A program made the position numbers and the translations under genes. This document shows, one piece after another, positions 5,603-27,255 of a stretch of DNA of 27,255 nucleotides. Positions within the stretch are counted from its first letter, which is position 1. The number at the start of each line of letters is the position of its first letter. The notes below the pieces were generated by a model. It had not been told where the DNA came from. It made no database searches and saw only the letters and a program-made list of their open reading frames with translations. The DNA comes from a virus. The stretch is taken from positions 1 to 27,255 of IMG/VR virus record IMGVR_UViG_3300031226_000007; one strand, 5' to 3'.

Positions 5603-6184
5603 CTAGTTATTCCTAACATAGTGCTGCTCGACCTGATCCCTGAAGCTGGACTCGGTCCAAGGAACTTCGGTCAAACCCTCAGCTGGGATGCTCTCGCCGA
5701 GGTCTTTCTCTGTCTGAATCATTGCCTGAGCGGTGGCTCTGAGTTCTCTGGCGATGACTGAGGTATCAACGACAGTTTGTCCGAGTCCACCGCCGCCGGA
5801 AAGAGTTTGTCGCTTGGCAACCTTCGCAGCATCAGCTGCCCATGCAAGGAGGATGTGCGCCGCCGCGATAGTTGAGCTGCCGTCCTGATCAAGGAAGTAC
5901 TGGATTTCAGCATCACTGAATACACTCCAGTAGTAGGTGAACTCCAGCTCAACACTTTGAGCAGGGATGGCAGTGAAGGCCACGATCCCATTGATCAGGT
6001 CGACGGTGTACTGTGCACCAACTGTCAGGAGAACCTGATTGGCCCTGACTTCTGGTGCTGGTGTAGCGAGAAGGTTGCTGGACTTGAGCTTGAAGTACTT
6101 ATCAACCCCATTACCAACACCCTTCTCGCGAGTGATGATACTCTTGTCAGATGTCTTTAGCCTAACAGCTTCTATGTCATTCAT
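5603..6184 (-). CDS. Head-tail connector (adaptor) protein
   Basis: This 193-residue protein starts at ATG 6184, overlapping the giant repeat gene stop as ATGA. The N-terminal half is a beta domain with the pattern VGAQYTVDLINGIVAFTAIP, common in phage connector proteins. A helical half follows, with FSDAEIQYFLDQDGS and AAAHILLAWAADAA. That pattern matches the gp6/gp15-type adaptor family, which forms a ring under the portal. It is the first neck gene after the long capsid-side module, so head-to-tail gene order resumes here. I am fairly confident of the class from the helical motif and less so of which ring it forms. Confidence 0.68.
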   Translation of the reverse strand: MNDIEAVRLKTSDKSIITREKGVGNGVDKYFKLKSSNLLATPAPEVRANQVLLTVGAQYTVDLINGIVAFTAIPAQSVELEFTYYWSVFSDAEIQYFLDQDGSSTIAAAHILLAWAADAAKVAKRQTLSGGGGLGQTVVDTSVIARELRATAQAMIQTEKDLGESIPAEGLTEVPWTESSFRDQVEQHYVRNN

Positions 6185-9100
6185 GAATCACCCTCATTGC
6201 GTTTGGTGTTGGCTAAAGCACCTTGTAGTTCGGGCCATCCACCATCCTTCGTATTGGCGGCATCACCTTGAGTTTCTGGCCATCCGCCTTGTCTTGTAGA
6301 TCCACTTGATGAAGCGTGTGTCCACGTCCACCCAGATCGCTCACCCTGCAGAAGTGGGATACCGAATGCCTCAGCACTCGAGATACCCACAGGGTAGATG
6401 AAGAAGGCGCCAGTTGTTAGCTTCGGGAGTCCGAAGAGTTCAGCCGAGGTTATACTGGGTGGAGCGATGGCCAGTTGTGGACGAACCGTGAGGATTGGTA
6501 GCCCGAGCAGCTCAGCTGATGAGATACCCCCTGGGATGATGTTAGATCTGGGTACTAGTGCTATAGATCCGAAGGACTCGGCCGTCGGGACACCAGTAAC
6601 CGAGATTCTAGCTGTCCCTGGGATGATTACTGGGACGCCAAGGGCTTCTCCAGTAACTATACCTGTGGGACTGACACTCCCCGCGCCTGTGAGAAGCGTC
6701 GGGGACCCGAAAGTTTCAGCTGACGGGATGCCGAATAGAGCCTGATTGATGGTAACTGCGCCAGGAAGTAGGATCGCAGTACCAAAGACTTGAGCTGACG
6801 AGATCCCAGCAGCAGCGATGTTGACGTTACCTGGGATCAGGACGTGTGTGCCGAACGACTCAGCTGAGACGATTCCAGCTGGAGCGATGAACCTCGGTCC
6901 ACCCAGTGATGTGAGGATGGCCGTGCCGAATGCTTCGCCGGACGCTATCCCGGTTGGGATAATGTTGACGTTGCCCGTGATGAGAGTAGCGTTCCCGAGT
7001 GTCTCGCCACTTCCTATTGCAGCTGGTAGAATGCTGGAGGTTGCTTTAAGAGTGAAGGCGCCGAACGATTCTTGAGTCGCAATCCCTGTGGGCTGGATGT
7101 TAGCGTTGCCATGCAGGAGTGCGATTGAACCGAACGATTCTTGAGTTGCGATTCCAGCTGGCTGGACAGTGAATGCACCAGTCAGCAGTGATGGAGTTCC
7201 CAGGGCCTCAGCACTAGGAATACCAGTCGGAATGATATTAGCATTTCCATGAAGCAGTGTCGGAGTTCCGACGGCTTCTTGACTGGCAATCCCCACAGGG
7301 AGTACTGCGGCAGTTGCTGTGAGAGTTACTGGTCCGAATGATTCCTGCGTAGCGATGCCAGCTGGTTGAATGCTGACAGCACCGTGCAGAAGAGTTGGAT
7401 TACCGACCGCCTCACCAGAAGTGATAGCGAACGGTAGGATGAAGAATGCCCCAGTTGACAGCAGCGTGCTGCCGAAGATTTCTCCGCTGGTGATACCAGT
7501 TGGGAGAATGTTAACGCTGCCATGAAGTAGGGTCGGTGTTCCCAGGACTTCCTGACTACCGATCCCACTTGGCAGGATGCTAACACTGCCATGAACTAAT
7601 GTGTGAGTGCCAACTGCCTCAGCTGTTGGTATCCCAGAAGGCAGGATAGAAACGGCTGGAGCTTGGCCAAGTACTAGAGTTGGTGTACCGACAGATTCAG
7701 CTGTAGCAATCCCAGTCGGCTGAATGTTGACGTTTCCGTGAACCAGCGTGACTGGATTGAACGATTCCTGTGAGGCCACCCCAGCTGGAATGATAGCAGC
7801 TGAGGTGACTAGTGTTGGAGTACCAAATGAACTGGTAACAACTCCAGCACCGAAGTACTTAGCTCTGAGATATCCCTCAACTAGTTGTCTATCAGAATCA
7901 GATAGTGCGTGATCATAGAGAATGACTTCCGCAACATCTGCGTTTGGAGTCTCAGCTGGAAGGGTCGGATCGTAGCCACCGATAGCGAGCATATCTCCGA
8001 AGGCACCACCGAAGCCTGAACTCAGGTAGTTTCCATCAGAGAATAGTCGTGAAGTTCCAGATACACCGTCAGCCGAGTACAACTTCCAGTTAGTGGTCTG
8101 GGCCGCCCGCATATCAGGGGTGAAGAAGCCGCCGTCGTAGCCGACATCCTCGAATCCATTCCAGAAGCCTAGAAGGAAGTTATTCGGTGGATAGATCGAG
8201 TTAACAACCCGACCCATGTTGGCATCACGGAGTCTAGCTACATAAGCAATCGTGTAGTTGTTCGTGACGCCTAGACCAGAAGTTACACGAACTCGACCCT
8301 CGTTGGTATTGAAACGAGCGATTGGCTGACCATTCAAGACGTTAGTAACTACTGATGGCGGCGGTGTTCCCACCATCGGTGCAGCTACAATGTCAGCTGG
8401 TAACCACCACAGGGCGAGCCCTGAGAGATCATCTGGAGCGAAGGCGCCTTCACCAGGAGCAGAGATGCTTGGCGGCAGGATATAGCTGGTGACAGTAGCC
8501 TTGACCAGAGTATGAGAACCGATGACCTCGGCAGATGCGATACCACTGGGGATGACATTGACATTCCCGGTGATCAGACTGAAAGTCCCGAACGACTCTT
8601 GAGTTGCTATCCCCACAGGGAGGATGCTGATTCCTCCGCGCAGAAGAGCTGGGGCTCCTAGTGCCTCAGCAGTCCCTATCCCTGTGGGAAGGATATTGAC
8701 AGAACCGTGAACTAGAGTAGTGGATCCGATGGCTTCCGCTGACGCTATCCCTGTGGGAAGGATAATGACAGCGCCATGGATCAGAGTATGTGAACCGAGT
8801 GCTTCAGCTGATGCAATCCCGGCTGGGAGAATGGCACCGGCTCCAGTGATTAGAACTGGGAGACCGAATGCCTCAGCTGAAGGAATCGCGGTGGGCTGGA
8901 TTAGTACCCCGCCACGAAGCAGTGTCGGTGATCCGAATACCTCGTCGGAGGGATCTCCTACTGGTAGGATGTTGACGTTACCGTGGATTAGAGTAGCAGC
9001 CCCAATAGCTTCACCAGAAGCTATTCCCGCTGGAAGAATGTTAGTAGCTGGCGCTTGAATCGCTAGAGTCAGAAGACCGAACCGCTGAGCAGTACTCGCC

Positions 9101-12100
9101 TTAGCAGCTGCATAGTGAGCTGCAACCTGAGCTGCGGTCAGTGCGTAGCTGTAGACAGCAGCATCATCGATGCTACCATGGAAGTAGCGAGTGCCGTTAG
9201 ATGCCTGGCGCCCGATGTTAAGTTCATTGCCCGTATCTGTGAGAGTGACATTGGTATCAAGGATGGTGACATCAACACCATCAATGTAAACCTTGCGAGT
9301 AGAACCACTCTTGGTTCCTACGACGTGGTGAACAAGTCCATCAGCTGAGATACCTGGATTAGCGTGGGCGAAGATACCACCGCCATCCTGCCTCCACAGG
9401 ACCTGCCCATTGACCGTGTTGTCGTCAAGCTGGAGCCCGTAAGCTCCACCTTTCATAACTATTGAGTCTAGATTTGCATCATTGGTTCGTCTGATCAAGG
9501 CTTCTACGGAGACTGAGTCACCGAGATCTAGCTTTGCATCATCGAGAATTTGAACGTACTGAGTAGATCCATCAAGAGTGATGGCAGTATCAGTCTCAGT
9601 AGTTCCGCCAGGTGCACCTAGTATTGGATTGTTGATGTATGTGCCATTGTTGCCGGAACCAGTTTCGTCCCTTGCAACTGTGCCACTGAGCTCACCCAAT
9701 CTCCAGTAAGCTCGTGGATTGTCGGCAAGGACGGCTTGAGCATAAGGTGAGAATCTAGACAGGCTGTGGGCACGTGCTTGAGCTGGGGTTAGCTCAGTGC
9801 TATAAACAGCAACTTCATCAATGTATGCATAGGATGGGGCGACCAAGAGGCCGCGATTGTAGTAGTCGCCAACCGTCAGGATAGACGGGGCTGTTCCATT
9901 CCATACCGGCGTCGATCCCGCGACTGAGACATCTACACCATCGAGGTAAATCTTGGGGATAGCCGCGGAACCAGCAGCTTTAGTGACGAGGATATGGTGC
10001 TGCTGATTACTTGTGATTGGAACAGAAGAGTGAACTGCTTGGTTGTTATCATCATCTACATAAAGGAGATTATCACTTGACTGAATGTAGATGTTAGGGG
10101 TACCGGTCCCTGTCGAGAGAAGAAAGTAGTAGCTAGATCCAGATATACCATTACGTTTGAAGATTAACTCATACGACCACGGGTTGAAGCCGACTGGCAA
10201 CGGTGGCGAAGCGACTGACATATCGCCACGTGTTCCAAGCGTCGGCATGAACAGCACTGATGGGCTGTCGTCATTTGGCAATAAGCTCGGTTGACCTAAT
10301 GTGTAGTTGGAACCATTATAAGTTCCGTCTACTCCACCAACCTGAGCTACCGCGGTTGTACCTGTCTTATCTCCTAATCTCCAGTAAGCAACTGGTGAAT
10401 CATCTAGAACAGCTTGCTTGTAGTCGCTGGCATAAACTATCGGCCTTGGTAGTATGAAGCTAGCTAAGCTGGCTGCAGCTACCAGGGTTGTAGAACCGAA
10501 TGCTTCACCGGATGCTATACCTGACGGCTGGATTAGGACTGCTCCGTGGATTAGAGTAGGAGCACCTAATACTTCAGCTGACGCTATCCCTGTGGGAAGG
10601 AGGTTCTTGCTGTTCCTGACAACGAAAGTTGCGAACGATTCTTGAGTCGCGATCCCCACAGGGGAGATGACGACTCCGCCCTTCAGGAACGAAGGAGTAC
10701 CTAACGCCTCGTCTGAAGGATCACCCACGGGTAGAATGTTGGTGTTGCCGTGGATGAGAGTCGCAGCTCCAACTACCTCAGATGAAGGAATAGCTGAAGG
10801 CTGTATGAACTTAGCGGGATAGGTCAGGACTAATGCGAAGGTTCCGAATGATTCCTGAGTCGCCAGACCAGTCGGAATGATATTGACTGGTCCGTGAATC
10901 AGTGTAGCTGTGCCGAATGCCTCAGCGGAAGCGATACCAGAGGGCTTGATGCTAGGAACTGATTGACTTAGAGATTGACTGAATGTTACGAATGTGTCGC
11001 CAGTAGCTCCAGAGGCACCAGCATAATAGAGAGTAACAGTAGTACCAGAGGTCGACGCGCCGTCTGGCGAATCGTCCGTTAAGAATCTAATACGAATTCT
11101 TTCATCGTCTGCGACTGCTAGGTCATCACCACTGACAAGAAATGAGGCGGCCGCTTCTGTGGCTGGAAGTGAGTTAGCTCTCTCACCCCAGGAGGTGGCA
11201 CCCCATTCTGTTACAGTTGATCCATCGGCAGAGATTTTAGCAATCTCACAACGAATGGTTGTCCTCTGACCAGGAGATGCAATCCTCGCATTGACTCTAA
11301 CAGCTCCACCTAAGGTGAAAGCTGCGAGTTTCTTGGTGAACCAATCAACTGGAGTACCAGCAGCGGTATCTGTGACTTGGATCGGTGGTACCCAGCCAGT
11401 AACAGTGTTGGTGACATCAGTCTGAACACCAGCACCACGAGAAGTCCACGCTTCTCGACCTACGAATGGGAATGTCCCAAGAGTGCTCCCAGCGGAGAAG
11501 TCATCTAATCTAAATGTCGTATCATTAGAGAAGATGGCTACTTTGCCAGCACTCATATACGTGAAGTCTTCAGCTGCAGCAGCTAAAGTCCAAGAACCAC
11601 CGCTGGGCTTGTACCAAGCTTCAATAGAGCTACCGTAGCAACGAATGCCAAGCTGAGCTCCGAGCGTGAGAGCGGTGATAGTGACAGTAGCTAGAGTGGT
11701 AGAAGCAGTGGCGACAACTCGCTGAACAACGATAGTACCCGGAGTACCATGCGTGTATCCAACACGGTAACCGTTGTATGTACCAGCTCCACCCTCAGCA
11801 GTAATCCTAGCGATGAGGCCAAAGTTATTTAAGCTGGCCAGTGCCGTTTGAACAGTGATAACGGCTTCAACATCTGGACCGAAGTTAGCTGGAGTCCAGT
11901 AACTTAGTCTGATTGAACCAGCTGTGTTACTGCAAACTCCATTGCTGAGCCTCTGAAGCGGACCCTGTGAAGTATTGAGGCTCGCCCAGTTCCCACCTTC
12001 AGAGAGCGGACTCTCATCAGCTCCAGTGAAGCTGGATACTAGTGAAGCTGCTGATGGTGCAAAATCAGTTGCAGTATTTGTTGGAAAGACCTGCGTACCA

Positions 12101-12735
12101 GCTGGTTCAGAGGCGAACGTGACATTCTCAGTCAGCTGGATCCAAGAATCACCAGTTACACCAGCAGTTCCTCCGTTATATGTAAAGTTGGTAGCAAAAC
12201 TCGAGGCCATAGTTCCGCCGCCGTCCGAGAAGTATGGACGGAAGCGAAGTCTATCGCCTTTCTTAACAACGACTCCAGCAGCAGGAGTAGTTGCAAAGTT
12301 GTTAACCGCATCAACAGAAAGTGCTAATTCAGTCGAGTTATTGGATCTAACAATCTGAGTAATCGCGCCTGTCTTGCCATCGATTACATCAAGTACACCA
12401 TTGAGGGCAGCATTCGCCGACATGCTCGACTCATAGCCCCAGAGGTTCCAAGTGACGGAACCAGAGATGGTGACCGCAGCAGCTACCGGGGGTGAGACGA
12501 AATCCATTCCAGATGCTGGATAGCCAACCTCAAGACCAGCTGAGACGAGAACAGGACCAGCGATGGTAGTTATTCCACCGCCCTGATTCGATGCACCGGG
12601 GGTTGTTTGCAATCCTCTGGTAGCCCATGGAACAGCTGTTCCACGCATATTGGGAGTATTGGTACCAGAACCCCAATCACAACCGACGCCTGATGGAGCT
12701 CCACCAGCCAATTTAGGATATAGCTTGGTAGCCAT
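6181..12735 (-). CDS. Giant LamG and 22-residue-repeat virion protein (putative fibre)
   Basis: This 2184-residue protein takes a quarter of the window. In order: a ~590-residue N-terminal part of beta-rich, concanavalin-like segments (for example SFTGADESPLSEGGNWAS and GLIARITAEGG); repeats 1-7 (about 596-765); two tandem LamG-like domains starting QAVLDDSPVAYWRLG (near 770) and QAVLADNPRAYWRLG (near 998); repeats 8-15; a third LamG-like region around LSGLALWWLPADI (near 1436); then about 22 more repeats to residue 2130. The tail carries near-repeats GGWPETQGDAANTK and GGWPELQGALANTK. The repeat consensus is roughly ILPTGIASAEAFGTPTLIHG. LamG folds usually bind glycans. The gene lies between capsid and neck genes, so a head fibre is as likely as a tail fibre. 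Start ATG overlaps the upstream stop (TGATG). Function is inferred. Confidence 0.82.
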   Translation of the reverse strand: MATKLYPKLAGGAPSGVGCDWGSGTNTPNMRGTAVPWATRGLQTTPGASNQGGGITTIAGPVLVSAGLEVGYPASGMDFVSPPVAAAVTISGSVTWNLWGYESSMSANAALNGVLDVIDGKTGAITQIVRSNNSTELALSVDAVNNFATTPAAGVVVKKGDRLRFRPYFSDGGGTMASSFATNFTYNGGTAGVTGDSWIQLTENVTFASEPAGTQVFPTNTATDFAPSAASLVSSFTGADESPLSEGGNWASLNTSQGPLQRLSNGVCSNTAGSIRLSYWTPANFGPDVEAVITVQTALASLNNFGLIARITAEGGAGTYNGYRVGYTHGTPGTIVVQRVVATASTTLATVTITALTLGAQLGIRCYGSSIEAWYKPSGGSWTLAAAAEDFTYMSAGKVAIFSNDTTFRLDDFSAGSTLGTFPFVGREAWTSRGAGVQTDVTNTVTGWVPPIQVTDTAAGTPVDWFTKKLAAFTLGGAVRVNARIASPGQRTTIRCEIAKISADGSTVTEWGATSWGERANSLPATEAAASFLVSGDDLAVADDERIRIRFLTDDSPDGASTSGTTVTLYYAGASGATGDTFVTFSQSLSQSVPSIKPSGIASAEAFGTATLIHGPVNIIPTGLATQESFGTFALVLTYPAKFIQPSAIPSSEVVGAATLIHGNTNILPVGDPSDEALGTPSFLKGGVVISPVGIATQESFATFVVRNSKNLLPTGIASAEVLGAPTLIHGAVLIQPSGIASGEAFGSTTLVAAASLASFILPRPIVYASDYKQAVLDDSPVAYWRLGDKTGTTAVAQVGGVDGTYNGSNYTLGQPSLLPNDDSPSVLFMPTLGTRGDMSVASPPLPVGFNPWSYELIFKRNGISGSSYYFLLSTGTGTPNIYIQSSDNLLYVDDDNNQAVHSSVPITSNQQHHILVTKAAGSAAIPKIYLDGVDVSVAGSTPVWNGTAPSILTVGDYYNRGLLVAPSYAYIDEVAVYSTELTPAQARAHSLSRFSPYAQAVLADNPRAYWRLGELSGTVARDETGSGNNGTYINNPILGAPGGTTETDTAITLDGSTQYVQILDDAKLDLGDSVSVEALIRRTNDANLDSIVMKGGAYGLQLDDNTVNGQVLWRQDGGGIFAHANPGISADGLVHHVVGTKSGSTRKVYIDGVDVTILDTNVTLTDTGNELNIGRQASNGTRYFHGSIDDAAVYSYALTAAQVAAHYAAAKASTAQRFGLLTLAIQAPATNILPAGIASGEAIGAATLIHGNVNILPVGDPSDEVFGSPTLLRGGVLIQPTAIPSAEAFGLPVLITGAGAILPAGIASAEALGSHTLIHGAVIILPTGIASAEAIGSTTLVHGSVNILPTGIGTAEALGAPALLRGGISILPVGIATQESFGTFSLITGNVNVIPSGIASAEVIGSHTLVKATVTSYILPPSISAPGEGAFAPDDLSGLALWWLPADIVAAPMVGTPPPSVVTNVLNGQPIARFNTNEGRVRVTSGLGVTNNYTIAYVARLRDANMGRVVNSIYPPNNFLLGFWNGFEDVGYDGGFFTPDMRAAQTTNWKLYSADGVSGTSRLFSDGNYLSSGFGGAFGDMLAIGGYDPTLPAETPNADVAEVILYDHALSDSDRQLVEGYLRAKYFGAGVVTSSFGTPTLVTSAAIIPAGVASQESFNPVTLVHGNVNIQPTGIATAESVGTPTLVLGQAPAVSILPSGIPTAEAVGTHTLVHGSVSILPSGIGSQEVLGTPTLLHGSVNILPTGITSGEIFGSTLLSTGAFFILPFAITSGEAVGNPTLLHGAVSIQPAGIATQESFGPVTLTATAAVLPVGIASQEAVGTPTLLHGNANIIPTGIPSAEALGTPSLLTGAFTVQPAGIATQESFGSIALLHGNANIQPTGIATQESFGAFTLKATSSILPAAIGSGETLGNATLITGNVNIIPTGIASGEAFGTAILTSLGGPRFIAPAGIVSAESFGTHVLIPGNVNIAAAGISSAQVFGTAILLPGAVTINQALFGIPSAETFGSPTLLTGAGSVSPTGIVTGEALGVPVIIPGTARISVTGVPTAESFGSIALVPRSNIIPGGISSAELLGLPILTVRPQLAIAPPSITSAELFGLPKLTTGAFFIYPVGISSAEAFGIPLLQGERSGWTWTHASSSGSTRQGGWPETQGDAANTKDGGWPELQGALANTKRNEGDS
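6345..7835 (-). repeat. Block 3 of the 22-23-residue repeats
   Basis: About 22 tandem copies of a 66-69-bp coding unit, each translating to a variant of I-x-P-x-G-I-x-[ST]-x-E-x-[FLV]-G-x-x-x-L-x-x-G. The copies are diverged but share DNA words such as the codons for GIATQESFG. Such tandem units can gain or lose copies by recombination, so copy number may vary among related phages. Confidence 0.85.
8485..9050 (-). repeat. Block 2 of the 22-23-residue repeats
   Basis: Eight tandem copies between the second and third LamG-like regions, from ILPAGIASGEAIG to VIPSGIASAEVIGSH. The DNA string CCCTGTGGGAAGGAT recurs at the same place in two of them, which points to recent duplication or gene conversion. 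Confidence 0.82.
10465..10955 (-). repeat. Block 1 of the 22-23-residue repeats
   Basis: Seven tandem copies before the first LamG-like domain, from IKPSGIASAEAFG to IQPSGIASGEAFG. One copy has the variant PVGDPSDEALG, which reappears in block 2 (PVGDPSDEVFG). This suggests that blocks 1 and 2 arose by duplication of a larger segment. Confidence 0.82.
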
Positions 12736-13021: not shown

Positions 13022-13450
13022 TTAGAGCTTGAAGATCTTGTTCGCCGTGTTGTCCCACTGGGCAGTGATGTCGCCGCCGTTCGGGCCGACCGGTTCACCA
13101 GTCGCCGTGTCGATGTAGGCGATGAGCTGCCAGTCAGAACCATTCGCGGTAGCTGTAGAGACGAAGAGGAGGATCGCACCAACGGTCGGCCCAGAAACTG
13201 CTGTGAAGACGGTGTCAGCGGCATCAGCGATACCAGCTGTGGCAGTCTTGGTTCCAAGCGATGGAGCGGAGAAGCCGACCCGAGCACCAGTAGGAACTGA
13301 TGCGAACACCGTGTCCAACGAAGCATTGAACACGTAAGCGGTCGGTAGGTTAGCGATCGAGACCAGCTGAGCTCGAATTGGAGCGTTCAGCCAGTTGATT
13401 GATCCCTGAAGGAATGCGTTTCGGCCGGTATCGTATAGAGCATTAGCCAT
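13022..13450 (-). CDS. Conserved phage structural protein (MANALYD family)
   Basis: This 142-residue protein begins MANALYDTGRNAFLQGSINW, a start seen in a recurrent family of small phage virion proteins of unsettled role. The middle shows beta strands (TGARVGFSAPSLGTKTATAG, then ILLFVSTATANG). The end, TPNGGDITAQWDN-type followed by KIFKL, is also typical of the family; here it reads VGPNGGDITAQWDN. The family identification is from memory of such sequences, not a search. ATG 13450 lies inside the end of the glycosyltransferase gene (8-base overlap). A strong stem-loop follows 8 nt after the stop, as after the major capsid gene, which suggests high expression and a multi-copy virion part such as a decoration or minor head protein. 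Confidence 0.72.
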   Translation of the reverse strand: MANALYDTGRNAFLQGSINWLNAPIRAQLVSIANLPTAYVFNASLDTVFASVPTGARVGFSAPSLGTKTATAGIADAADTVFTAVSGPTVGAILLFVSTATANGSDWQLIAYIDTATGEPVGPNGGDITAQWDNTANKIFKL

Positions 13451-16409
13451 TTAAGAAGCTCTCCCACTGAATGGATCTTTCGTCCCAAGAACGGGCTGGG
13501 GCCGATTTCTTGATCCTCTTGCGAAGACCGTCATCTTCTTCCTGGTTCATCAGGTGGATCACAGCGTTAGCATAGGCCTGTTGAACTGATGGGTCATGGA
13601 CATCACCCTCAATATCTATTCCACCCTGAACAGTTTCACTCAGGCCAGCAAATCTGTTGGTGACCGGGATGCAACCCGCCAGCTGTGCTTCAACAGCGGT
13701 GATGCAGTAAGTCTCGGGGAAGTATGTTGGGTAGAGCCAGATGCTGGACTTGGAGAATTCTTCAGCAAGTTTATCTTGTGGAATCCTCCCATGCTGCACC
13801 ACGTTCTTGCTGTTTAGGAAAAGCTGGTCCATTCCAGACTTGAAGTTGACGAGTTGGTCGTAGCCTGGTAAGGAAGCTGCCTTGTTGAAGCTGTCCCACC
13901 CGTAGAAGACGTGCAGTTCAGCGTCTGGGACGGCTTCCACGATCTTAGGCCAGATTCGGTCCAGTACGATGTCCAATCCCCGATCCGGACTCGAGGAGTA
14001 GATGACTCGCTTGGGATTTCGTATCGCCTTCTTTCGGAAGAGCTCACGGTCAACACCATTCCCAATGATGTGGATCTTAGACTCATCGATGAACGGATAA
14101 GTCTCGATCACGTGTTCTTTGTGCCACTGTGTCAGAACAATGAATGAGTCGAACTCCTTAGCCCGAGCCTTCGTTAATCGATCTCCGTAGTCGGTATCAT
14201 GCATCCACAGGGCCAAGTGCTCGGTGTTGATCTCCCAATCTGCGGCCTCAGGAAGCCTCCAGGAGATGTAGAGGTCAGAGTGTATTTCGGAACGGAAGTG
14301 GTCCGTGGGGCGATAACAAACCCCATTGTAGTAGCCCGGCTCGTCGATGGGGTTGTAGACGATCGGCCTGCGATTCTTCTTAGCGAACGACTCAGCAAGC
14401 CTGATAACCGCCGTCTCAGATCCACCAAGCCCCTTCTCCTTGAGCTTCTTTGGTCCCCATTCCTCGAGTCCTGATTGAGCGCCTATGATGATTGTCTCAC
14501 CGAGCTGGACGCCAGGCTTGTAATCAGCGAAGATCCACCCCGTGGGTCCCCATGATTGCTTGTACAAATTCCAGATCTGACCACGACGACTGAGCAGACG
14601 CTCGATGTCGAACTGGTCAAAGATTCTGAGGTGCCCCTTGGGCTCATCCTTATCCCAGGCTGGGATGTTACCATCTTCCCAGGACATATAAGGAGTAGTG
14701 AGTGCGATATGATTAGCTGTCTTCTCGAGCCTATCGAGTGTGGCAGCTGGATTGACTACGTGCTCGATGATTTCGAAGAAGATGGCAAGGTCAGCTTTGT
14801 CACCTTCCCACCCTCCAATCTCATCAACGTTACCGACTTGGAAACGAGCGTCAATTCCCCATTCTTTAGCTCGTAACGACGCGAGTTCCGTACAACGAGG
14901 GTCAAGGTCGAACCCCGTGACGTGGGCTCCGAGTTCCCTGGCGAGGGGGAGGGCAATAAAGCCATCCGAACACCCCCAATCCACTACTGTCTTAGCCTTG
15001 ATCCGCTTGCCGACTTCTATAGCGAACTTCATTCGTGGATAATTGAGCCAGTCAGGATTGTTGATCGACTCATCGGGCATGGGTACCCAATGTGGATTGT
15101 CGTTGTAGAAGTCAGTCATGATCTGCGGATTGTCGATATGCGCTGTCTGCGACATCGACCGCTGCCAGACTTCATGGATAGTGGTGCTATTCTCGATCTT
15201 CTTTGGCACCACGTCGAATAGCTTGCGAACCTTGAGCCACTCGTCGTTCCGACCGAGATGTTCCCTGAGCGTCAGAAAGGCAGACTGAACTAGATTAAGC
15301 TCAGCCGACTGACGGAGTAACCTGATCTGCTCTGCCACAGCTGGGTCTGGCTTGAACTCGTAGGCATTCTCGTAGTTTCTCAGCGCCATCTCGTGGTCAC
15401 CGAGGTGCGTGTAACAGAGGGCGATGAGCAGAGAAGGCTCGTACGTGTACTCAAGCGGATTCGTGATCAGCATGGTACGAGGCTTGGGCTTTGAAACCCC
15501 AATCTTCAAGTACTCGAGTGCAGCTGCCCAGTTGTTCAGAGGCTCAGATGAATAGGACTTCGCGAGAGAGAAGTAGGCATCTGGCCAGTCGGGCAGCATC
15601 GCAATTGCATCTGTGGCTGCCCTGATAGACCGATCGATCTCACCAATACTTCGCCAAGCATGCGAGATGCGAACCTGTGCCTGATACTTCTCCTCGTCCC
15701 AGCCGCTAAGCTTGACGAATCGCTGGAGATGAAGAATTGCTTCTCTGATCTCTCCACGACCAAGATTCTCGGAACCGAGATACACCAGCAGCCTAGGATC
15801 AGGATTAGGCTCTGAGTCCTGGAGCTGCTGATACAGAATCTTCAGGTTTCGGTCAGGCTCATGCTTCATCGGTGGCTTGTGGTGAATGACCACTACGTCG
15901 TCAAGCTTGAGCGGGACGGTGACGAACTGAGGGATCAAAACCTCGTGGACCTTGCCAGCCCACTTCCAGTCCACAGGGAGCTCTGGGTGCCTCTTGACCA
16001 GTCGCTCACGAATGAGATAACAGATCGTCATCCCACTATCATCACGACCGTAGTCGTAGCCCATGTAGAAGGCGTCTGTGTTGGGATTGTTGTCGATATA
16101 CCCCTTCAGCTTCTCGCCGCCGTAGAGGGTATCATCCCCATCCAACCACAGGAAGTACTCGCCCGTGCACCGTTCGAGAACCAGATTCCTCGCTTCTGAG
16201 AAATCCTCGGTCCACTCGATGTCGAAATACTCGATGTTCTCCCACTTCTTGATGATGTCCAGAGTATCATCAGTGGACTCCCCAGCTAACCCGATAACAA
16301 TCTGGTCAACATAGGGAGCCACCGATTCCAGTAAAGCTTGTAAGGTACGACCCTCGTTCCTTACAATCATGCCTAAGGAGATAGTTGACACGCCGCCGCT
16401 CACTTTCAA
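13443..16409 (-). CDS. Multidomain glycosyltransferase-TPR-methyltransferase-glycosyltransferase
   Basis: This 988-residue protein joins four units. Residues 1-180 are a GT2 (GT-A) glycosyltransferase: SLGMIVRNEG at the start, EARN at 72-75 and the metal-binding DGDD at 90-93. Residues ~205-400 are TPR-like helical repeats. Residues ~455-580 are a class I SAM methyltransferase with DWGCSDG at 477-483, GFDLD at 499-503 and EIIEHV near 546. Residues ~650-988 are a GT4-type (GT-B) glycosyltransferase with GLGGSE at 660-665 and an EX7E motif (E899, E907) in FPETYCITAVEAQ. All key residues look intact. It lies between the major capsid and other virion genes, so modification of virion proteins is more likely than of DNA. 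The first codon is TTG; GTG at 16391 is an equal alternative, as neither has a clear ribosome site. Confidence 0.85.
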   Translation of the reverse strand: MKVSGGVSTISLGMIVRNEGRTLQALLESVAPYVDQIVIGLAGESTDDTLDIIKKWENIEYFDIEWTEDFSEARNLVLERCTGEYFLWLDGDDTLYGGEKLKGYIDNNPNTDAFYMGYDYGRDDSGMTICYLIRERLVKRHPELPVDWKWAGKVHEVLIPQFVTVPLKLDDVVVIHHKPPMKHEPDRNLKILYQQLQDSEPNPDPRLLVYLGSENLGRGEIREAILHLQRFVKLSGWDEEKYQAQVRISHAWRSIGEIDRSIRAATDAIAMLPDWPDAYFSLAKSYSSEPLNNWAAALEYLKIGVSKPKPRTMLITNPLEYTYEPSLLIALCYTHLGDHEMALRNYENAYEFKPDPAVAEQIRLLRQSAELNLVQSAFLTLREHLGRNDEWLKVRKLFDVVPKKIENSTTIHEVWQRSMSQTAHIDNPQIMTDFYNDNPHWVPMPDESINNPDWLNYPRMKFAIEVGKRIKAKTVVDWGCSDGFIALPLARELGAHVTGFDLDPRCTELASLRAKEWGIDARFQVGNVDEIGGWEGDKADLAIFFEIIEHVVNPAATLDRLEKTANHIALTTPYMSWEDGNIPAWDKDEPKGHLRIFDQFDIERLLSRRGQIWNLYKQSWGPTGWIFADYKPGVQLGETIIIGAQSGLEEWGPKKLKEKGLGGSETAVIRLAESFAKKNRRPIVYNPIDEPGYYNGVCYRPTDHFRSEIHSDLYISWRLPEAADWEINTEHLALWMHDTDYGDRLTKARAKEFDSFIVLTQWHKEHVIETYPFIDESKIHIIGNGVDRELFRKKAIRNPKRVIYSSSPDRGLDIVLDRIWPKIVEAVPDAELHVFYGWDSFNKAASLPGYDQLVNFKSGMDQLFLNSKNVVQHGRIPQDKLAEEFSKSSIWLYPTYFPETYCITAVEAQLAGCIPVTNRFAGLSETVQGGIDIEGDVHDPSVQQAYANAVIHLMNQEEDDGLRKRIKKSAPARSWDERSIQWESFLNG

Positions 16410-22175: not shown

Positions 22176-22361
22176 TTAATCTCCCCTGCCGCGGCGAACC
22201 CGCCAGCCTATGGCAAGTAGAATCCCAGCGATGGCACCCAGCAAAGCACCGCGTTCATTGATGCCCACAGAGCCCGGGGTAAGGATCGCACCTATCAGAA
22301 CGAGGGCGATAGCGATAAGAGCCCATAGTGCCGCTTCGTGGGGATCGAGGTTAGACGGCAC
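22176..22361 (-). CDS. Small two-helix membrane protein
   Basis: This 61-residue protein has two hydrophobic segments, ALWALIAIALVLIGAIL (11-27) and GALLGAIAGILLAIGW (38-53), with a short Gly/Asn/Glu turn between and a basic end (RVRRGRGD). The start is GTG 22361, overlapping the terminase stop by one base (TAGTG). That is exact enough to accept the gene despite its size. It could be a holin-like or membrane-anchoring protein. Two helices with a basic tail fit a class II holin in form, but a place among packaging genes is odd for lysis, and no lysin gene is in the window. Treat it as a phage membrane protein of unknown role. Confidence 0.68.
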   Translation of the reverse strand: MPSNLDPHEAALWALIAIALVLIGAILTPGSVGINERGALLGAIAGILLAIGWRVRRGRGD

Positions 22362-23782
22362 TAGTAATCTCCTAAGCTGACCCTCTCTCGGATACCTGGA
22401 TCGAATTCCTCATAGTCCAGGTATTGCATCTCTTCTCGTTTGATATCTTCATTGAAGAGTGCTGGGAACGTGTTGTAGTAGCCGTACCGGACAGCATCAA
22501 TCCCATGGTTGTCAACGTCCACAGGGAGCTCAGTAGGGTTAGTGTCTATCCTCTTCCTGATCTCGTCCGGGTAGTGGTACTGGCCGTGTTCTTTGATGAC
22601 GTTCTTGCATTTGGGATCGTACGTGATCCGGGGTACGATGTTTCCATCCGTGGATCTGAGGGGATCTCGAAGGAACTGGTGATGTACCTCGAGTCCCTTC
22701 TTGATGCTTGGCTTCTCTCCCCACGCGCGATAGCCTCTAAGTCGCCAAGTAGCAGCAGCTTCAGCCGCTGCCTTGTCGATAATGACGTTAAGCTCTGCCT
22801 TCGGCCGTCGGTAGTCGTTGAGGATGTACCCGCCCCACTTGTCTTCCGCAAGCGCGATGATGCGGTCTGACGTATGCTGTGTAAGGTAAATCTCATCGAG
22901 TACCCTCACTTCTTCTTCCGGGGTTACCTGAACCAGAAGAACACAGTAAGGAGCTGACGTGCCTGGGTCGATCCACAGGGCAGTGTCAAGCGAAGGATTG
23001 TAGATATGAGACCGAACGTGGATATTTTGATCGAACTCTGGGAAGACCAGACCACCGTATGAGATGAACTTAGCTTCCCATTCTTGTGCGAAAGCCTCCG
23101 GCGTCGAAGTACGTCGTGCTTCTTCTATTTCCTCCGGTCCCAGAAGCGGATTCTCTGACGAAGGGATCTGCCAGGACTCCCATCCCTCCTCGTGATCAGG
23201 GTGGTCAGCTTGACCTCGATTGAAGAAATCAAAGAACCAATTGAAACCGCGAGGAGTACTAGTGAGAAGAGCGTCACCTCGCCGGTCTGCGAGAGCAGGA
23301 CGAAGGTACTGATCCCAAGTACGATGCTTAAGGCGAGCAGCTTCTGCACAGACGACAAGATCCAAACCCTCTCCAATGAGCTGGTCTGGGTTCTCTTCTG
23401 AGCGGCACTCGATCATGGTACCGTTTGATAGCTGCATGAAAAGCTCTCGTTCCGACTTGCGCCGGACTGGAATGAGCTCTCGCTCAACGATGAGCTTCCA
23501 TGCAACACGGAATTCCTTCTCAGCCAAGTCCATCGTCGGACCAACGATCCAGATGTACGATTCTGGAATGATGGCCTGTGCGAAGACTTCCCTACCGCCT
23601 AAGAGTGATTTACCAATCCGCCGGCCACCATCAACAACCCTGAAGCGAGCTTTACTCGAATGGATTGCCTTCTGATAGGGTAGAACTGTTAAGTTCGAAG
23701 ACTGGAAAATCCGGCTCTTCTGCAGTGGAGTTCTGAGCAAGGACCGCTGCGATGATGGTATCGTATTGGGTTGTGCCAACAT
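22361..23782 (-). CDS. terL: Terminase large subunit (packaging ATPase-nuclease)
   Basis: This 473-residue protein is the packaging motor. The Walker A motif GGRRIGKS is at 52-59. The Walker B motif is LDLVVCAEA (140-148), with catalytic Glu147. The coupling motif TSTPRG lies at 174-179. The nuclease domain begins at ALWIDPGTSAP (Asp272), has IIDKAAAEAAATWRLRG later, and ends with an Asp in NHGIDAVRYG. All key residues appear present. ATG 23782 makes it overlap the small subunit gene by 131 bases. I keep this start because the frame has no ATG/GTG/TTG nearer to the conserved LPYQKAIHSSKARFRVV. A TTG at 23740 is the one alternative. Upstream GGGTGAT is a fair ribosome site. Confidence 0.92.
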   Translation of the reverse strand: MLAQPNTIPSSQRSLLRTPLQKSRIFQSSNLTVLPYQKAIHSSKARFRVVDGGRRIGKSLLGGREVFAQAIIPESYIWIVGPTMDLAEKEFRVAWKLIVERELIPVRRKSERELFMQLSNGTMIECRSEENPDQLIGEGLDLVVCAEAARLKHRTWDQYLRPALADRRGDALLTSTPRGFNWFFDFFNRGQADHPDHEEGWESWQIPSSENPLLGPEEIEEARRTSTPEAFAQEWEAKFISYGGLVFPEFDQNIHVRSHIYNPSLDTALWIDPGTSAPYCVLLVQVTPEEEVRVLDEIYLTQHTSDRIIALAEDKWGGYILNDYRRPKAELNVIIDKAAAEAAATWRLRGYRAWGEKPSIKKGLEVHHQFLRDPLRSTDGNIVPRITYDPKCKNVIKEHGQYHYPDEIRKRIDTNPTELPVDVDNHGIDAVRYGYYNTFPALFNEDIKREEMQYLDYEEFDPGIRERVSLGDY

Positions 23783-24350
23783 TTACATCACCCGCGATAT
23801 TGACTCCAGCTTTGCCACCGATGGGGCCGGCAACACGATCGAACACCCTCAGTAGATCAAGCAGCTCAATTTGCTCGATCTTCCCCGGCTCTGTCCGCTT
23901 CTCCATCTCCTTGATGACCCGTCCCCGGATCTTCGAGAACATGGTATTGCGGAGTTCCTCAATTCTTGAACGAAACTCAGCATCTGTGTAGTATTTCTTC
24001 ACCTGGCGAACTGAGACGCCAGCGTGAGTTGCCGCTAATCTAAACGAGCCTCCGGCGGCGAGAGCTGTCGCTGCCATCTCCATATGCGCGCGCATGGGGG
24101 CATACTTGAGACGTTGGGCGCGGAACCGCTCCGATCGCTCCTCGAAGCTCTCTCGCTTAGGATCCAGAACTCGTAAACCCTCTCTCACGGCAGGGAGAAG
24201 GTTGCGATCATGTCCTGAGTATGTCTCTTCCACCTGTTCCAGATGAGCGGGTCGTCGTGGCTTAGCGCGAGCTTGCGTAGCTCGTTCGACGTGAAGCTCG
24301 TCCTTCTCTTCTCCGGTCCAAGGTGAGATGTTCTTCTCTGGCTCAGTCAT
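23652..24350 (-). CDS. terS: Terminase small subunit
   Basis: This 232-residue protein has the layout of a small terminase, which recognises the packaging site and hands DNA to the large subunit. A charged N-terminus (1-80) leads to a helix-turn-helix at about 90-122 (ATALAAGGSFRLAATHAGVS then VRQVKKYYTD). A helical oligomerisation part follows (IRGRVIKEMEKRTEPGKIEQ), then a C-terminal tail rich in Asn/Thr/Glu. It lies directly before terL and overlaps it. The start overlaps the 172-aa gene by 8 bases. A cos or pac site should lie nearby but I cannot identify it. Confidence 0.85.
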   Translation of the reverse strand: MTEPEKNISPWTGEEKDELHVERATQARAKPRRPAHLEQVEETYSGHDRNLLPAVREGLRVLDPKRESFEERSERFRAQRLKYAPMRAHMEMAATALAAGGSFRLAATHAGVSVRQVKKYYTDAEFRSRIEELRNTMFSKIRGRVIKEMEKRTEPGKIEQIELLDLLRVFDRVAGPIGGKAGVNIAGDVNVGTTQYDTIIAAVLAQNSTAEEPDFPVFELNSSTLSEGNPFE

Positions 24351-24861
24351 GGAGGATCTCTCTCAATACCATGCGGATGCCTTTCGACATGGAAAGGTGA
24401 ACCCCATACGATGTCATCATCATCCGCTTCCGAATGACTGGAACCTCTGAACCACAGAGGGTCATCAGTAGTGGGGTAGCGAGCTTTGGCTGAACCCCCA
24501 TGATGTTATAGAGTGAAGTGGCAACCGGATAGGTGTTTTTGTTGGGAACTCCGTACCTCCGCTTCCGAATCTTCCGATATTCCTGAAGATTTTGTCCTGG
24601 AAGCGGAGGAATGAGGCCTAAGTTCGCCTTCAGGTGAGCCATGAACACCGTGGAAGTCTCTGGGTTGCCGTTCTCGGCCAGAAGCTTGTGCTCGTGGATT
24701 TTAGAGGGGATCTCAGTTTCCCAGATCTGCTTGATCTGGCATAGGCCACAGAAGCGGACTTCAGGGAGGTTCGTGTAGCCCAGAAAGAAGAGAGCTGAGT
24801 GTCCACAGGGCAGCTCAGGGTACTGTTGATGGTAAACCCTGGCTATCTCTGTGGATAACAA
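24343..24861 (-). CDS. First gene of the late operon: Cys/His protein of unknown function
   Basis: This 172-residue protein starts at TTG 24861 with GGGAAGAG eight to fifteen bases upstream as ribosome site. ELPCGHSALFF (Cys19, His21) and FCGLC (Cys38, Cys41) make a likely CxH...CxxC zinc site. The rest is basic and helical (QEYRKIRKRRYGVPNKNTYP, then LLMTLCGSEVPVIRKRMMM). No HNH, helix-turn-helix or nuclease motif is visible. As the first gene after the late promoter and directly before the small terminase, it may act in packaging or in control of late genes. Both are inferences from position. I do not recognise a family. Confidence 0.72.
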   Translation of the reverse strand: MLSTEIARVYHQQYPELPCGHSALFFLGYTNLPEVRFCGLCQIKQIWETEIPSKIHEHKLLAENGNPETSTVFMAHLKANLGLIPPLPGQNLQEYRKIRKRRYGVPNKNTYPVATSLYNIMGVQPKLATPLLMTLCGSEVPVIRKRMMMTSYGVHLSMSKGIRMVLREILHD

Positions 24862-24866
24862 TTCTG

Positions 24867-25037
24867 AACTCTTCCCTGAAGGTTGCCTAGGCTGGCAAAA
24901 GCTTCGACGTCAAAACTGAGGTTTCCCACTACCGCGAAAGTGCGGGAGTTTAGTTCCAGGAGCTCTTCCCCTGGCTGGACCTGTGGGTAGATCCAGATGG
25001 AATTGGTGGGAGTTTGAGTTGGAAGCTCTTCCCTGGC
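24867..25037 (-). repeat. GGGAAGAGYT motif copies in the late leader
   Basis: Read on the minus strand, GGGAAGAGCT lies at 25033-25024 (just past the -10, over the likely start of transcription) and 24970-24961, and GGGAAGAGTT at 24876-24867, where it also serves as the ribosome site of the first gene. Further copies lie upstream near 25217-25208 and at 26222-26213. The copy at 25023-25033 is part of an inverted repeat GGAAG-CT-CTTCC; the copy at 24961 is framed by CCAGG and CCTGG. They could be operator sites or leader RNA elements. Confidence 0.55.
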
Positions 25038-25040
25038 TCT

Positions 25041-25069
25041 ATCCTAAGACATCACCTGGAAAATGTCAA
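25041..25069 (-). promoter_or_regulatory. Late operon promoter, TTGACA-N17-TAGGAT
   Basis: On the minus strand a perfect -35 TTGACA (25069-25064), a 17-base spacer and a -10 TAGGAT (25046-25041) form an excellent housekeeping-sigma promoter. TAGGAT is a common -10 form in Actinobacteria. Transcription should start near 25034 and give a leader of about 170 bases before the TTG at 24861. It is the best promoter match I find ahead of the virion genes. Confidence 0.82.
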
Positions 25070-25601
25070 TGTTCATCTTCTAACTACCAACAAACTCTTC
25101 ACTGAGTTGGCTTAGAGAAGGCTAAGCTTACATCTACTAACCTCCAGAACCAAAACTGCCTTTTCTCTGAGCGGTAGAGAGATGAAGTGTTTAGATGGCT
25201 AAACTGAACTCTTCCCCTAAGAACCTCCAAGGGAAGTTCCAGTTTAGTAAGCTTGCCTGGGATTTGGGGTAAGCTCATCTTCAAAATACAAACTGACATC
25301 ATCAAATAGTTTCCCAGCTACATCTTAAAATAGTGCGACAGTAAAGACATACCACTTTGATAGCTAAGAAGTCACTGATGTCCATCACGCATCGCCACGT
25401 GACAATCTAGGCCACAGGACATGGCCGGTCCCTGGACCCTTAAGGGCACATCAGATCATACTATTTCTACTTACATCTTCTAAACCACCAACACCCTCAT
25501 TATGTCATTAGGGGACAGGGGACAGACATGGTATGGTGAGTGTGTCGGGCGACCAAGTGCGTCACCCGCTAGGCCCCACGGGGCAGGAAGGGACTAGCCA
25601 A

Positions 25602-25883
25602 GTGGCAGTCACCTACACGCCGAACGTCATCGCACGCGAGGCAAGCACCAAGACTCACCCGGTCACGGCCAAGACCGTGCGCGGTCTCGCGCGGGCGACC
25701 ATCGCCCGTTTCGACAAGACCAAGCACCCGGAGTACCAAGGCCATGCGTACAGCGCTGCGGAGCGGACAGCGCTCCTGTCCGCGCTCCGCGCGCGGGCGC
25801 AGCGCTCCGCTCCGGTCGCGACCAAGGCCAAGCCAAAGGCCAAGGCCCCGGCCAAGGCCAAGGCCCCGGCGGTCGTCGCATGA
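25602..25883 (+). CDS. Basic protein with histone-like Lys/Ala/Pro tail (moron gene 1)
   Basis: This 93-residue protein is encoded against the direction of the virion operon. I choose GTG 25602 because GGAAGGGA lies eight bases upstream; an upstream ATG at 25533 would add 23 residues with a poor ribosome site. Residues 1-70 are a small, probably helical domain (VTAKTVRGLARATIARFDK, then YSAAERTALLSALRAR). The C-terminus is KAKPKAKAPAKAKAPA, like the tails of bacterial histone-H1-like and HU-like proteins, so DNA or RNA binding is plausible. Codons nearly all end in G or C, unlike the surrounding DNA, which points to separate origin. It is coupled to the next gene by ATGA. Family unknown. Confidence 0.75.
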   Translation: MAVTYTPNVIAREASTKTHPVTAKTVRGLARATIARFDKTKHPEYQGHAYSAAERTALLSALRARAQRSAPVATKAKPKAKAPAKAKAPAVVA

Positions 25884-25981
25884 CCTGCCAGCGCTGTCGG
25901 GTCCGCTCCGCCGTGGAGTGGCGCTCCGGTCTGTGCATGGTCTGTCTGCGATGGGCGACAGCCAAGCGACCCGTCCGCTAG
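25880..25981 (+). CDS. 33-aa four-cysteine zinc-ribbon-like microprotein (moron gene 2)
   Basis: A frame of 33 codons begins with ATG at 25880, overlapping the upstream stop as ATGA, and ends at TAG 25979-25981. The protein reads MTCQRCRVRSAVEWRSGLC then MVCLRWATAKRPVR. Two CxxC pairs (Cys3/Cys6 and Cys19/Cys22), spaced by 12 residues, form a likely zinc ribbon, with a basic end. The exact coupling, paired cysteines and terminator directly after make it convincing despite its size. It may act with the basic protein as a two-part nucleic-acid-binding unit. This is an inference. Confidence 0.7.
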   Translation: MTCQRCRVRSAVEWRSGLCMVCLRWATAKRPVR

Positions 25982-25986
25982 CGGAC
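25973..25986. repeat. 14-bp perfect palindrome over the microprotein stop
   Basis: GTCCGCTAGCGGAC is a perfect palindrome that includes the TAG stop codon and lies just before the terminator hairpin. It could form a small hairpin, an operator, or simply extend the terminator region. Confidence 0.5.
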
Positions 25987-25990
25987 AAAC

Positions 25991-26024
25991 GAAACGTGCG
26001 CCCTACGGGGCGCACGTTTTTTTT
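25991..26024 (+). terminator. Rho-independent terminator of the plus-strand cassette
   Basis: ACGTGCGCCC pairs perfectly with GGGCGCACGT around a TACG loop, followed by eight T residues (26017-26024). It is a textbook terminator, and its direction shows that the two upstream genes form their own transcription unit. Confidence 0.93.
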
Positions 26025-26050
26025 CGGCCGATACATAAATGGAGATTTAT

Positions 26051-26152
26051 ATGTCCCGGTCATTATCTGCACGGCGCAGACATTGCACGGCGCAGGGTCG
26101 GTTGGGTTGTTGCGGACGCAACTACCCATCCGATTTAGACCAAATGGTCTAA
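26051..26152 (+). CDS. Possible 33-aa ORF, doubtful
   Basis: ATG 26051 follows GGAG at a good distance (aaatGGAGatttat). The 33-residue frame (MSRSLSARRRHCTAQGRLGC, then CGRN...) ends with TAA inside the dyad at 26130-26157. The GGAG sits in the loop of a small AT stem (ATAAAT/ATTTAT), whose 3' arm reaches the start codon. It lies after the cassette terminator and has no visible promoter. It may be chance. Confidence 0.22.
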   Translation: MSRSLSARRRHCTAQGRLGCCGRNYPSDLDQMV

Positions 26153-26157: not shown

Positions 26158-26523
26158 AGGAGGCAAGAAGCGAGAGGGCGGAGGATGTTCTTAAGGAGAT
26201 TAAAAACTTGGGAGCTCTTCCCTACCCTCGGCGCCTCCAAATCGCGCGAGTTTGAAAAGTTTTTGTAGGTTTGATGCCAACAGGCAACCTCCAAGATCCT
26301 ACGGGACTAGGTTCCACAGGAACCGCCTAAGGAGGCGCCTTCGGAACCTCCAAAGCTCGCCTAGGATCCTGTTCCAGCGAGCATCCGCAGCCATCCGGGC
26401 ATCCGGAACCTCCATAACATCCAACCACAGGACTTACTTTATGAAGCGGTGGGCGGAGGTTCCTCTTAAGGAAGGAAAGGTGGGAGATATGTAGGTAGTT
26501 ATGATACGATGGCCAGACGGCGG

Positions 26524-26611
26524 TTATGATATGATTATTGTAGGTAGTTATGTAAGGATTTAAATCCCATCAATAATCATATCATAACTACCTACAATAA
26601 CTATATCATAA
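26524..26611. repeat. AT-rich inverted repeat, 29-bp arms
   Basis: The arms at 26524-26552 and 26583-26611 match at 27 of 29 positions and frame a 30-base centre that contains the palindrome GGATTTAAATCC (26556-26567). Each arm holds the element GTAGGTAGTTATG. A third copy (plus) is at 26491-26506 and a fourth (minus) at 26878-26897. Clustered repeats with AT-rich dyads suggest a replication origin or a multi-site operator. A cruciform is also possible. Confidence 0.65.
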
Positions 26612-26963
26612 ACTTGACATATACCCCACAGGATCCCCACATATACTACGGACAAATCTTCTAGCTGGCGAGCATTCTACCTAAAGAGGCGCCTTGCGGT
26701 TCCACAGGTTATGGATGATCTTCTGTGTCAGTGAACATCTAAGCTTGGCTCCAAAAAGACAAAGCTATCCAGAATGGGAGGTGTGAAGGCAGATCCTGGT
26801 GCTGACGAGAGGTGATCTTTAGAGATTGGGCGTGGGTTTGATCCTTACTGGCAGCATTCCCAGGTCTGACTGCCTTATCATATCTACCTACATATCCTCC
26901 CCAGGGGATCCCAGAGGTTGATTGAGGTAAATCTTCTAGCTTACATCCAGCTAGGCAAGCTAC

Positions 26964-27024: not shown

Positions 27025-27255
27025 TTACTCGTCGTCGTCCTCTTCCTCATCTTCCTCTTCGACATCATCGTCGCCCTCATCGGAGGTGAGATCGATGTCG
27101 GCCACTTCCTCGTCCTCGGCAAGATCGTCCAGCTCCTCGAGCTCGGCGCTGACTTCCTCTGCCGCGTCCTGGGTCTTCTTACCCTTGGCCTTCTTGGGTG
27201 CCGCGGTGGTCTTCTTCGTGGCTCCGGCCGCGATTGCAGCCTTGAGTCGCTCGAC
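27025..27255 (-). CDS. Acidic-tail protein, C-terminal part only
   Basis: The last 76 codons of a minus-strand gene are visible; its start lies beyond the right edge. The end of the protein runs VERLKAAIAAGATKKTTAAP, a Lys-rich patch (KKAKGKKTQ), an acidic helix (EEVSAELEELDDLAEDEE) and a final run of Asp/Glu ending EEEDDDE. Basic and then strongly acidic C-termini occur in nucleic-acid-binding proteins and their regulators, such as single-strand DNA-binding proteins. The typical DDDIPF end of those is absent. Function unknown. The frame is firm, as it is closed by a terminator just downstream. Confidence 0.72.
   Translation of the reverse strand, partial: VERLKAAIAAGATKKTTAAPKKAKGKKTQDAAEEVSAELEELDDLAEDEEVADIDLTSDEGDDDVEEEDEEEDDDE

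Follow-up and report, generated by a model that had tools for sequence, protein, structure and literature searches.

The stretch of DNA analysed here (the window) is a complete 27-kb virus record of 27,255 nt and represents a fragment of a tailed phage. All virion and packaging genes recognised in it, including those for the portal and the head protease (PHROGs), lie on the − strand. A two-gene unit at 25602–26024 runs antiparallel to this virion operon, on the + strand. Its first gene, ORF1, encodes a 93-aa protein ending in the basic tail KAKPKAKAPAKAKAPA, and its second gene, ORF2, encodes the 33-aa protein MTCQRCRVRSAVEWRSGLCMVCLRWATAKRPVR with CxxC pairs at residues 3–6 and 19–22. The two genes are joined by a 4-nt ATGA overlap, in which the ATG of ORF2 begins at 25880 and the TGA of ORF1 ends at 25883. 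A hairpin with arms at 25987–26003 and 26008–26024 and T8 at its end closes the unit. The initial annotation had named these traits (opposed strand, small basic-tailed protein, two Cys pairs, ATGA join and own terminator) together with a use of G/C-ending codons, and our analysis agrees with it on all of them. The features are as follows:

22361–23782, − strand: TerL (PHROGs)
22361–24861, − strand: first genes of the packaging operon (172-aa gene, TerS-like gene, TerL), a constant neighbour of the cassette (PHROGs and related loci)
24867–24877, − strand: GGGAAGAGYT repeat (pattern count; relatives)
24961–24971, − strand: GGGAAGAGYT repeat (pattern count; relatives)
25024–25034, − strand: GGGAAGAGYT repeat immediately past the −10 of the packaging promoter (pattern count)
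25041–25069, − strand: promoter-like TTGACA-N17-TAGGAT before the packaging/virion operon (consensus scan)
25207–25217, − strand: GGGAAGAGYT repeat, candidate operator (pattern count)
25474–25495, − strand: limit of the island towards the packaging genes, GGTGTTGGTGGTTTAGAAGATG, with conserved flank beyond; common to relatives with either cassette orientation
25529–25537, + strand: extended −10 promoter-like element TGGTATGGT; TGnTAnnnT shared with relatives
25602–25883, + strand: ORF1, 93 aa, GTG to TGA; predicted MerR-like winged helix (residues ~1–69) and basic low-complexity tail
25880–25981, + strand: ORF2, 33 aa, ATG to TAG; C-x2-C-x12-C-x2-C microprotein
25987–26024, + strand: strong intrinsic terminator, GC-rich hairpin plus T8 (inverted repeat I6)
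26213–26223, − strand: GGGAAGAGYT repeat on the opposite side of the cassette (pattern count; also in L006 at −2486 from terL)
27025–27255, − strand: gene of an acidic protein, truncated at the contig end so that only the C-terminal part is encoded (43–71% identity to homologues)

A GC-rich island in a clade of soil phages

For ORF1 the GTG at 25602 is the likelier start, because the homologues begin at this position and the extended −10 element lies over the in-frame ATG at 25533, which would give a protein of 116 aa. TGnTAnnnT is found 56–73 nt before ORF1 also in L004, L006, L007, L013, L020 and L033. A −35 of the form TTGAC[AG] belongs to the cassettes of L013, L015, L020 and L033; the window has no clear −35. 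Hairpin-like sequences, as judged by eye, close the unit in many relatives too. The promoter-like sequence, ribosome-binding site and terminator, all read from the sequence, support the view of the cassette as a self-contained transcription unit. An Rfam search gave no match. In the leaders of ORF1 from about 20 loci a hairpin with a variable stem often precedes the ribosome-binding region GCTAG-n-GGAGG, and their folding mildly beats that of shuffles. The mean shuffle z over 20 leaders is −1.18, with 4 of the 20 individually at p≤0.05, which is suggestive only, and we do not claim a conserved leader RNA hairpin.

GC and GC3 are 0.70 and 0.86 in ORF1 as compared to 0.52 and 0.56 in terL. Outside the island, no 300-nt stretch of the contig matches the GC content of ORF1 (z=5.0), and the same comparison puts ORF1 at the top in 17 of 18 loci. 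The high GC and the G/C-ending codons of the cassette would fit a high-GC host, the remaining phage genome being lower in GC.

A search with TerL led to a clearly delimited clade of some 36 uncultured contigs (61–93% identity); after a gap, the next matches stand at 49% and 37%. These are uncultured soil phages. Among 50,697 annotated phages we found neither a cassette homologue, by DNA and protein searches, nor a close relative of the window contig; a tblastn search of plasmids with ORF1 of L020 returned no homologue, and a terminase-profile scan of genome contigs gave a single distant match (31%) and no integrated close relative. The closest cultured terminases, ~33–34% identical, come from Arthrobacter and Gordonia phages. 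A tRNA-Leu(UAA) gene is present in two of four relatives scanned, one of which also has tRNA-Ile(UAU), as expected for a phage whose GC content is probably lower than that of its host. These tRNA-Ile(UAU) and tRNA-Leu(UAA) genes lie at 4356–4509 of L095 and 17822–17905 of L102 and serve A-ending codons. The GC contrast, the tRNA genes of the relatives and the closest cultured terminases together suggest a high-GC host, possibly an actinobacterium. All seven relatives of 55–62 kb carry a family A DNA polymerase.

Two further observations concern the window outside the cassette. A 988-aa protein encoded within the virion operon (13443–16409) contains two glycosyltransferases together with a methyltransferase-like stretch (PHROGs). 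The motif TCCCTGTGG occurs nine times on both strands between 7083 and 22527 (0.26 expected), six times within the gene at 6181–12735 for a 2184-aa protein.

The GC-rich island is found about −1.6 to −3 kb from terL in every clade contig that reaches far enough upstream. Its flank junction, which reads GGTGTTGGTnGTTTAGAAGATG on the terL strand, was recognised in nine loci, with the cassette parallel or antiparallel. The terL tree implies three changes of cassette orientation, at least two of which are forced by well-supported branches; judged from these sequences, inversion of the island in place has occurred at least twice. We do not favour an active invertible element: a repeat search around the window cassette found no inverted repeat linking its two borders, and the seven relatives of 55–62 kb showed no integrase or resolvase family. 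The flips look evolutionary.

Other sequences near the island were noted in passing. Past its terminator side, antiparallel loci have a near-palindrome of the type CATAAATGGCCCATTTATG (L002 10535–10555, and L008), partly kept at 26029–26052 of the window. Between the cassette and the acidic gene, the region 26486–26896 holds nested inverted and direct repeats of TGTAGGTAGTTATGATA and no long ORFs. At the start of contig L092 (212–664), from a relative, there is another GC-rich gene, whose product reads by eye as a LuxR-type helix-turn-helix protein.

ORF1, a conserved protein with a predicted MerR-like fold

A relative of ORF1 is found in the island of every sufficiently long clade contig (about 25). 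An ORF1 HMM gives E-values of 1e-8 or better in most loci (0.012 in L010), and as it was trained on sixteen of the scored loci, their low E-values are partly by construction; ORF1 of L033/L034 is assigned by position and architecture only. In the initial pairwise comparison with the window ORF1, nearer loci gave E-values of 7e-22 to 1e-11, and more distant loci gave weak matches. In the pairs compared dN is 0.24–0.59 and dS 0.80–1.62 (window/L004: dN 0.43, dS 1.15; window/L007: dN 0.59, dS 1.33). We rejected the idea that ORF1 diverges unusually fast, since its 49–54% identity to close relatives falls within the range of several virion genes.

An AlphaFold model built from 16 homologues (pLDDT 78) has helices at residues 7–14, 23–33 and 52–68 and a short wing. 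The top Foldseek matches in the PDB are to CarH, with E-values that are not significant. Re-examination of the Foldseek candidates with VIA-align listed seven entries, all of them MerR-like: RacA (Z 6.4, rmsd 2.5 over 57 residues), CbpM (4.5), BldC (4.2), CarH (4.1) and CarA (3.2). These Z values are modest (<8) but concordant. With RacA, CarH and CbpM the predicted ORF1 shares the helix-turn-helix and wing; it lacks their coiled-coil, cobalamin-binding and J-protein-binding parts. No MerR or HTH_17 match was obtained from Pfam for any of the 16 members, nor from NCBIfam for two members, and ORF1 was assigned to no family of either database. Thus, ORF1 is predicted to have a MerR-like winged-helix fold with a basic tail and is not a member of a named MerR family. 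The term 'histone-like' used in the initial annotation is not supported by the predicted fold; no HU or histone family appears in the Pfam or fold results, and only the basic AK-rich tail is similar. PHROG 908 matches four ORF1 members weakly (best E 1.9e-4); we set it aside as evidence because its function is unassigned and the match in L020 extends into the low-complexity tail.

BldC of Streptomyces is a MerR-like protein of 68 aa that forms cooperative multimers on direct repeats (PMC5859096). Like BldC, ORF1 is a short MerR-like winged helix without a coiled coil or effector domain (the alignment covers 48 residues). It differs from BldC in its basic AK-rich tail, its phage context and the lack of any detectable sequence family, and its binding to repeats is an inference.

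ORF2, an exchanged putative zinc microprotein

The second gene overlaps ORF1 in most loci, by ATGA, by GTGA or by 8–11 nt. ORF2s of 29–68 aa with two Cys pairs are found in the window, L002/L007, L020/L035, L021, L023, L026/L032 and L033/L034. In L004, L006 and L018 a related 100-aa family occupies the slot, in further loci other genes do, and L011/L012, L013 and L015–L017 have no ORF2. An overlapping ORF2 with two C-x(1,2)-C pairs occurs in 7 of 17 loci, as compared to 0.07 expected. The relatives of ORF1 at a constant place, dN below dS and this excess of Cys pairs argue, at the level of sequence, that the cassette is more than chance. Homologues that keep the pair of genes, which the initial annotation had proposed to search for, exist in L002/L007, L033/L034 and others, with open frames. 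It had also warned that most gene finders would miss the microprotein, and at 33 aa the protein is short enough for gene finders to overlook.

The interpretation in the initial annotation is supported in part; the term moron, taken strictly, is not. Like phage morons, the cassette has (at the sequence level) its own promoter and terminator, the opposite strand and a deviant composition. Patchy presence, in contrast, was not found: ORF1 or a positional equivalent is present in all clade contigs covering the place, and only ORF2 is swapped. ORF2 content varies even at terL identities of 89–93% (window, L004, L006). The ORF2 nearest to that of the window is from L033, although the TerL proteins are only ~61% identical; the two ORF2s share 48–50% identity (dS 1.20, dN 0.53, over only 28 codons), and their alignment score was reached by none of 2000 Cys-preserving shuffles. 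Likewise, the ORF2s of L007 and L023 match each other. In the viral collection, a degenerate DNA pattern of ORF2 had three matches, two of them L033-type records at the ORF1/ORF2 junction. The third (L112) was rejected as chance, being antisense to a structural gene in a low-GC phage.

The ORF2 model (pLDDT 87.5) is a small zinc knuckle followed by a C-terminal helix. Against the PDB at E≤10, the window ORF2 matches only S14 type Z (E 0.093 and 0.36; phmmer), and the L033 ORF2 matches it with E 0.014. The L033 ORF2 also matches the NCBIfam S14 models with E 0.007–0.035, scoring 15.7 of 77 bits, which is under the curated cut-off; the window ORF2 has no NCBIfam match. With a two-sequence ORF2 profile the E-value improves to 7.5e-4, and 18 of 19 matches are uS14. 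Cys-preserving shuffles equalled the uS14 score in 8 of 5000 and 2 of 5000 cases. Foldseek with ORF2 returned ten matches, all of them ribosome chains and the identifiable ones mostly uS14, with E above 1; the VIA Z is 2.9. ORF2 has the C-x2-C-x12-C-x2-C-L-R of uS14 type Z at identical spacing, and its best matches are actinobacterial S14 proteins, which have 61 aa compared to its 33. There is moderate evidence that the window ORF2 is uS14-like, resembling the type Z zinc module. It is not a uS14, because it falls below the curated cut-off and lacks the first 22 residues.

Host takeover, which the initial annotation had also proposed, is an alternative: ORF1 would act on host DNA or promoters and ORF2 would mimic the uS14 zinc module, docking on or disturbing the 30S head or its assembly, with the packaging repeats unrelated. 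The sequence, profile and Foldseek searches all point to uS14. Phage-borne ribosomal proteins (bS21, bL12 and others) are known, and viral bS21 enters ribosomes (PMC6375957); S14 is unmentioned in the main text of that survey of viral ribosomal proteins. In bS21 phages the bS21 gene is reversed inside the terminase/capsid region (PMC9723584), which is the nearest parallel among phages to a reversed ribosomal-protein gene beside terminase genes. Those proteins, however, are recognisable ribosomal proteins, whereas the likeness of ORF2 is partial, with the N-terminal residues missing and the structural scores low. The ORF2s of the other relatives have no uS14 likeness beyond the Cys pairs, and a small zinc knuckle may have acquired the likeness by convergence. 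We regard host takeover of this kind as rather unlikely. Its most specific form, in which a uS14 zinc-module mimic of 29–33 aa, translationally coupled to a MerR-like regulator, acts on the host small ribosomal subunit while sister phages use this slot for different zinc microproteins with other targets, is in our estimation also unlikely.

The exchange of ORF2 raises another explanation: a fixed slot for anti-defence or superinfection exclusion, whose second gene is swapped against changing host defences under ORF1 as autoregulator. The turnover of ORF2 among phages with terL 89–93% identical, its nearest match in a distant one, the repeated inversion in place and the host-like GC composition would agree with such a slot. 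PADLOC, on the other hand, gave no match, ORF1 diverges no faster than several virion genes and a toxin-like signature is absent, and we judge this role to be quite improbable.

A proposed regulatory mini-operon beside the packaging operon

In 21 of 21 loci scanned, a promoter similar to that of the packaging operon is present at some −1.1 to −1.5 kb from terL. Around it the window has five sites of RRCTCTTCCCY (the GGGAAGAGYT direct repeat) against 0.17 expected, counting the one beyond the cassette, and repeats occur in the corresponding region of most relatives. Upstream of terL in L010, L024 and L029 exact repeats are missing, yet ORF1 is present. Full-length homologues of the acidic protein have a MerR-like domain related to ORF1 (hhalign P=3.8e-7, probability 93%).

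We favour, tentatively and at somewhat less than even confidence, a regulatory mini-operon beside the packaging operon in which ORF1 times or represses late transcription through the repeats, operator and target both being inferred. The cassette would probably be transcribed by a host sigma-70-type RNA polymerase. ORF1, a predicted MerR-like DNA-binding protein, would by analogy work like BldC, as a multimer on direct repeats, its basic tail probably gripping DNA unspecifically. For such sites, the GGGAAGAGYT repeats that surround the adjoining packaging-operon promoter are the best candidates, and there ORF1 may time or repress late transcription. ORF2, a predicted small zinc-binding protein produced by coupled translation, may be the partner of ORF1 or a separate host-directed effector exchanged between lineages. 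It cannot be essential to ORF1 action, as it is absent or unrelated in several relatives.

The repeats could instead serve the terminase (as pac) or the acidic MerR-like protein. ORF1 itself might be a packaging accessory, a pac/cos-region protein that binds the array and aids TerS, and in most relatives the array and cassette do lie directly upstream of the TerS/TerL genes. Against this role, the phage has a separate TerS-like gene (a weak PHROGs match, E 0.015), and the cassette departs from the virion operon in promoter, strand and codon usage, so that we consider it very doubtful. Excisionases are among the proteins with MerR-like folds. The control of lysogeny or excision in a temperate phage by ORF1 as an excisionase- or repressor-like winged helix, a lysogeny set having been among the proposals of the initial annotation and the acidic protein matching an excisionase/regulator PHROG weakly (E 0.01), is disfavoured as highly improbable, since the seven relatives of 55–62 kb, which may be incomplete, have zero Pfam matches to Phage_integrase or Resolvase while controls matched, and nothing of the ParA type above cut-off, and no integrated close relative was found in the genome contigs.

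The regulatory mini-operon, with the uS14-like microprotein as a striking though unproved feature, is thus our preferred reading, and the cassette may be a host-control or late-gene switch. What these lower-GC phages have in common is a fixed GC-rich island in which one regulator-like gene stays while tiny, putative zinc proteins are exchanged. Should ORF2 prove to mimic uS14, the phage would have a very small tool directed against translation. If ORF1 acts on the adjoining repeats, the way in which these soil phages switch to packaging could be tested directly on the cassette.
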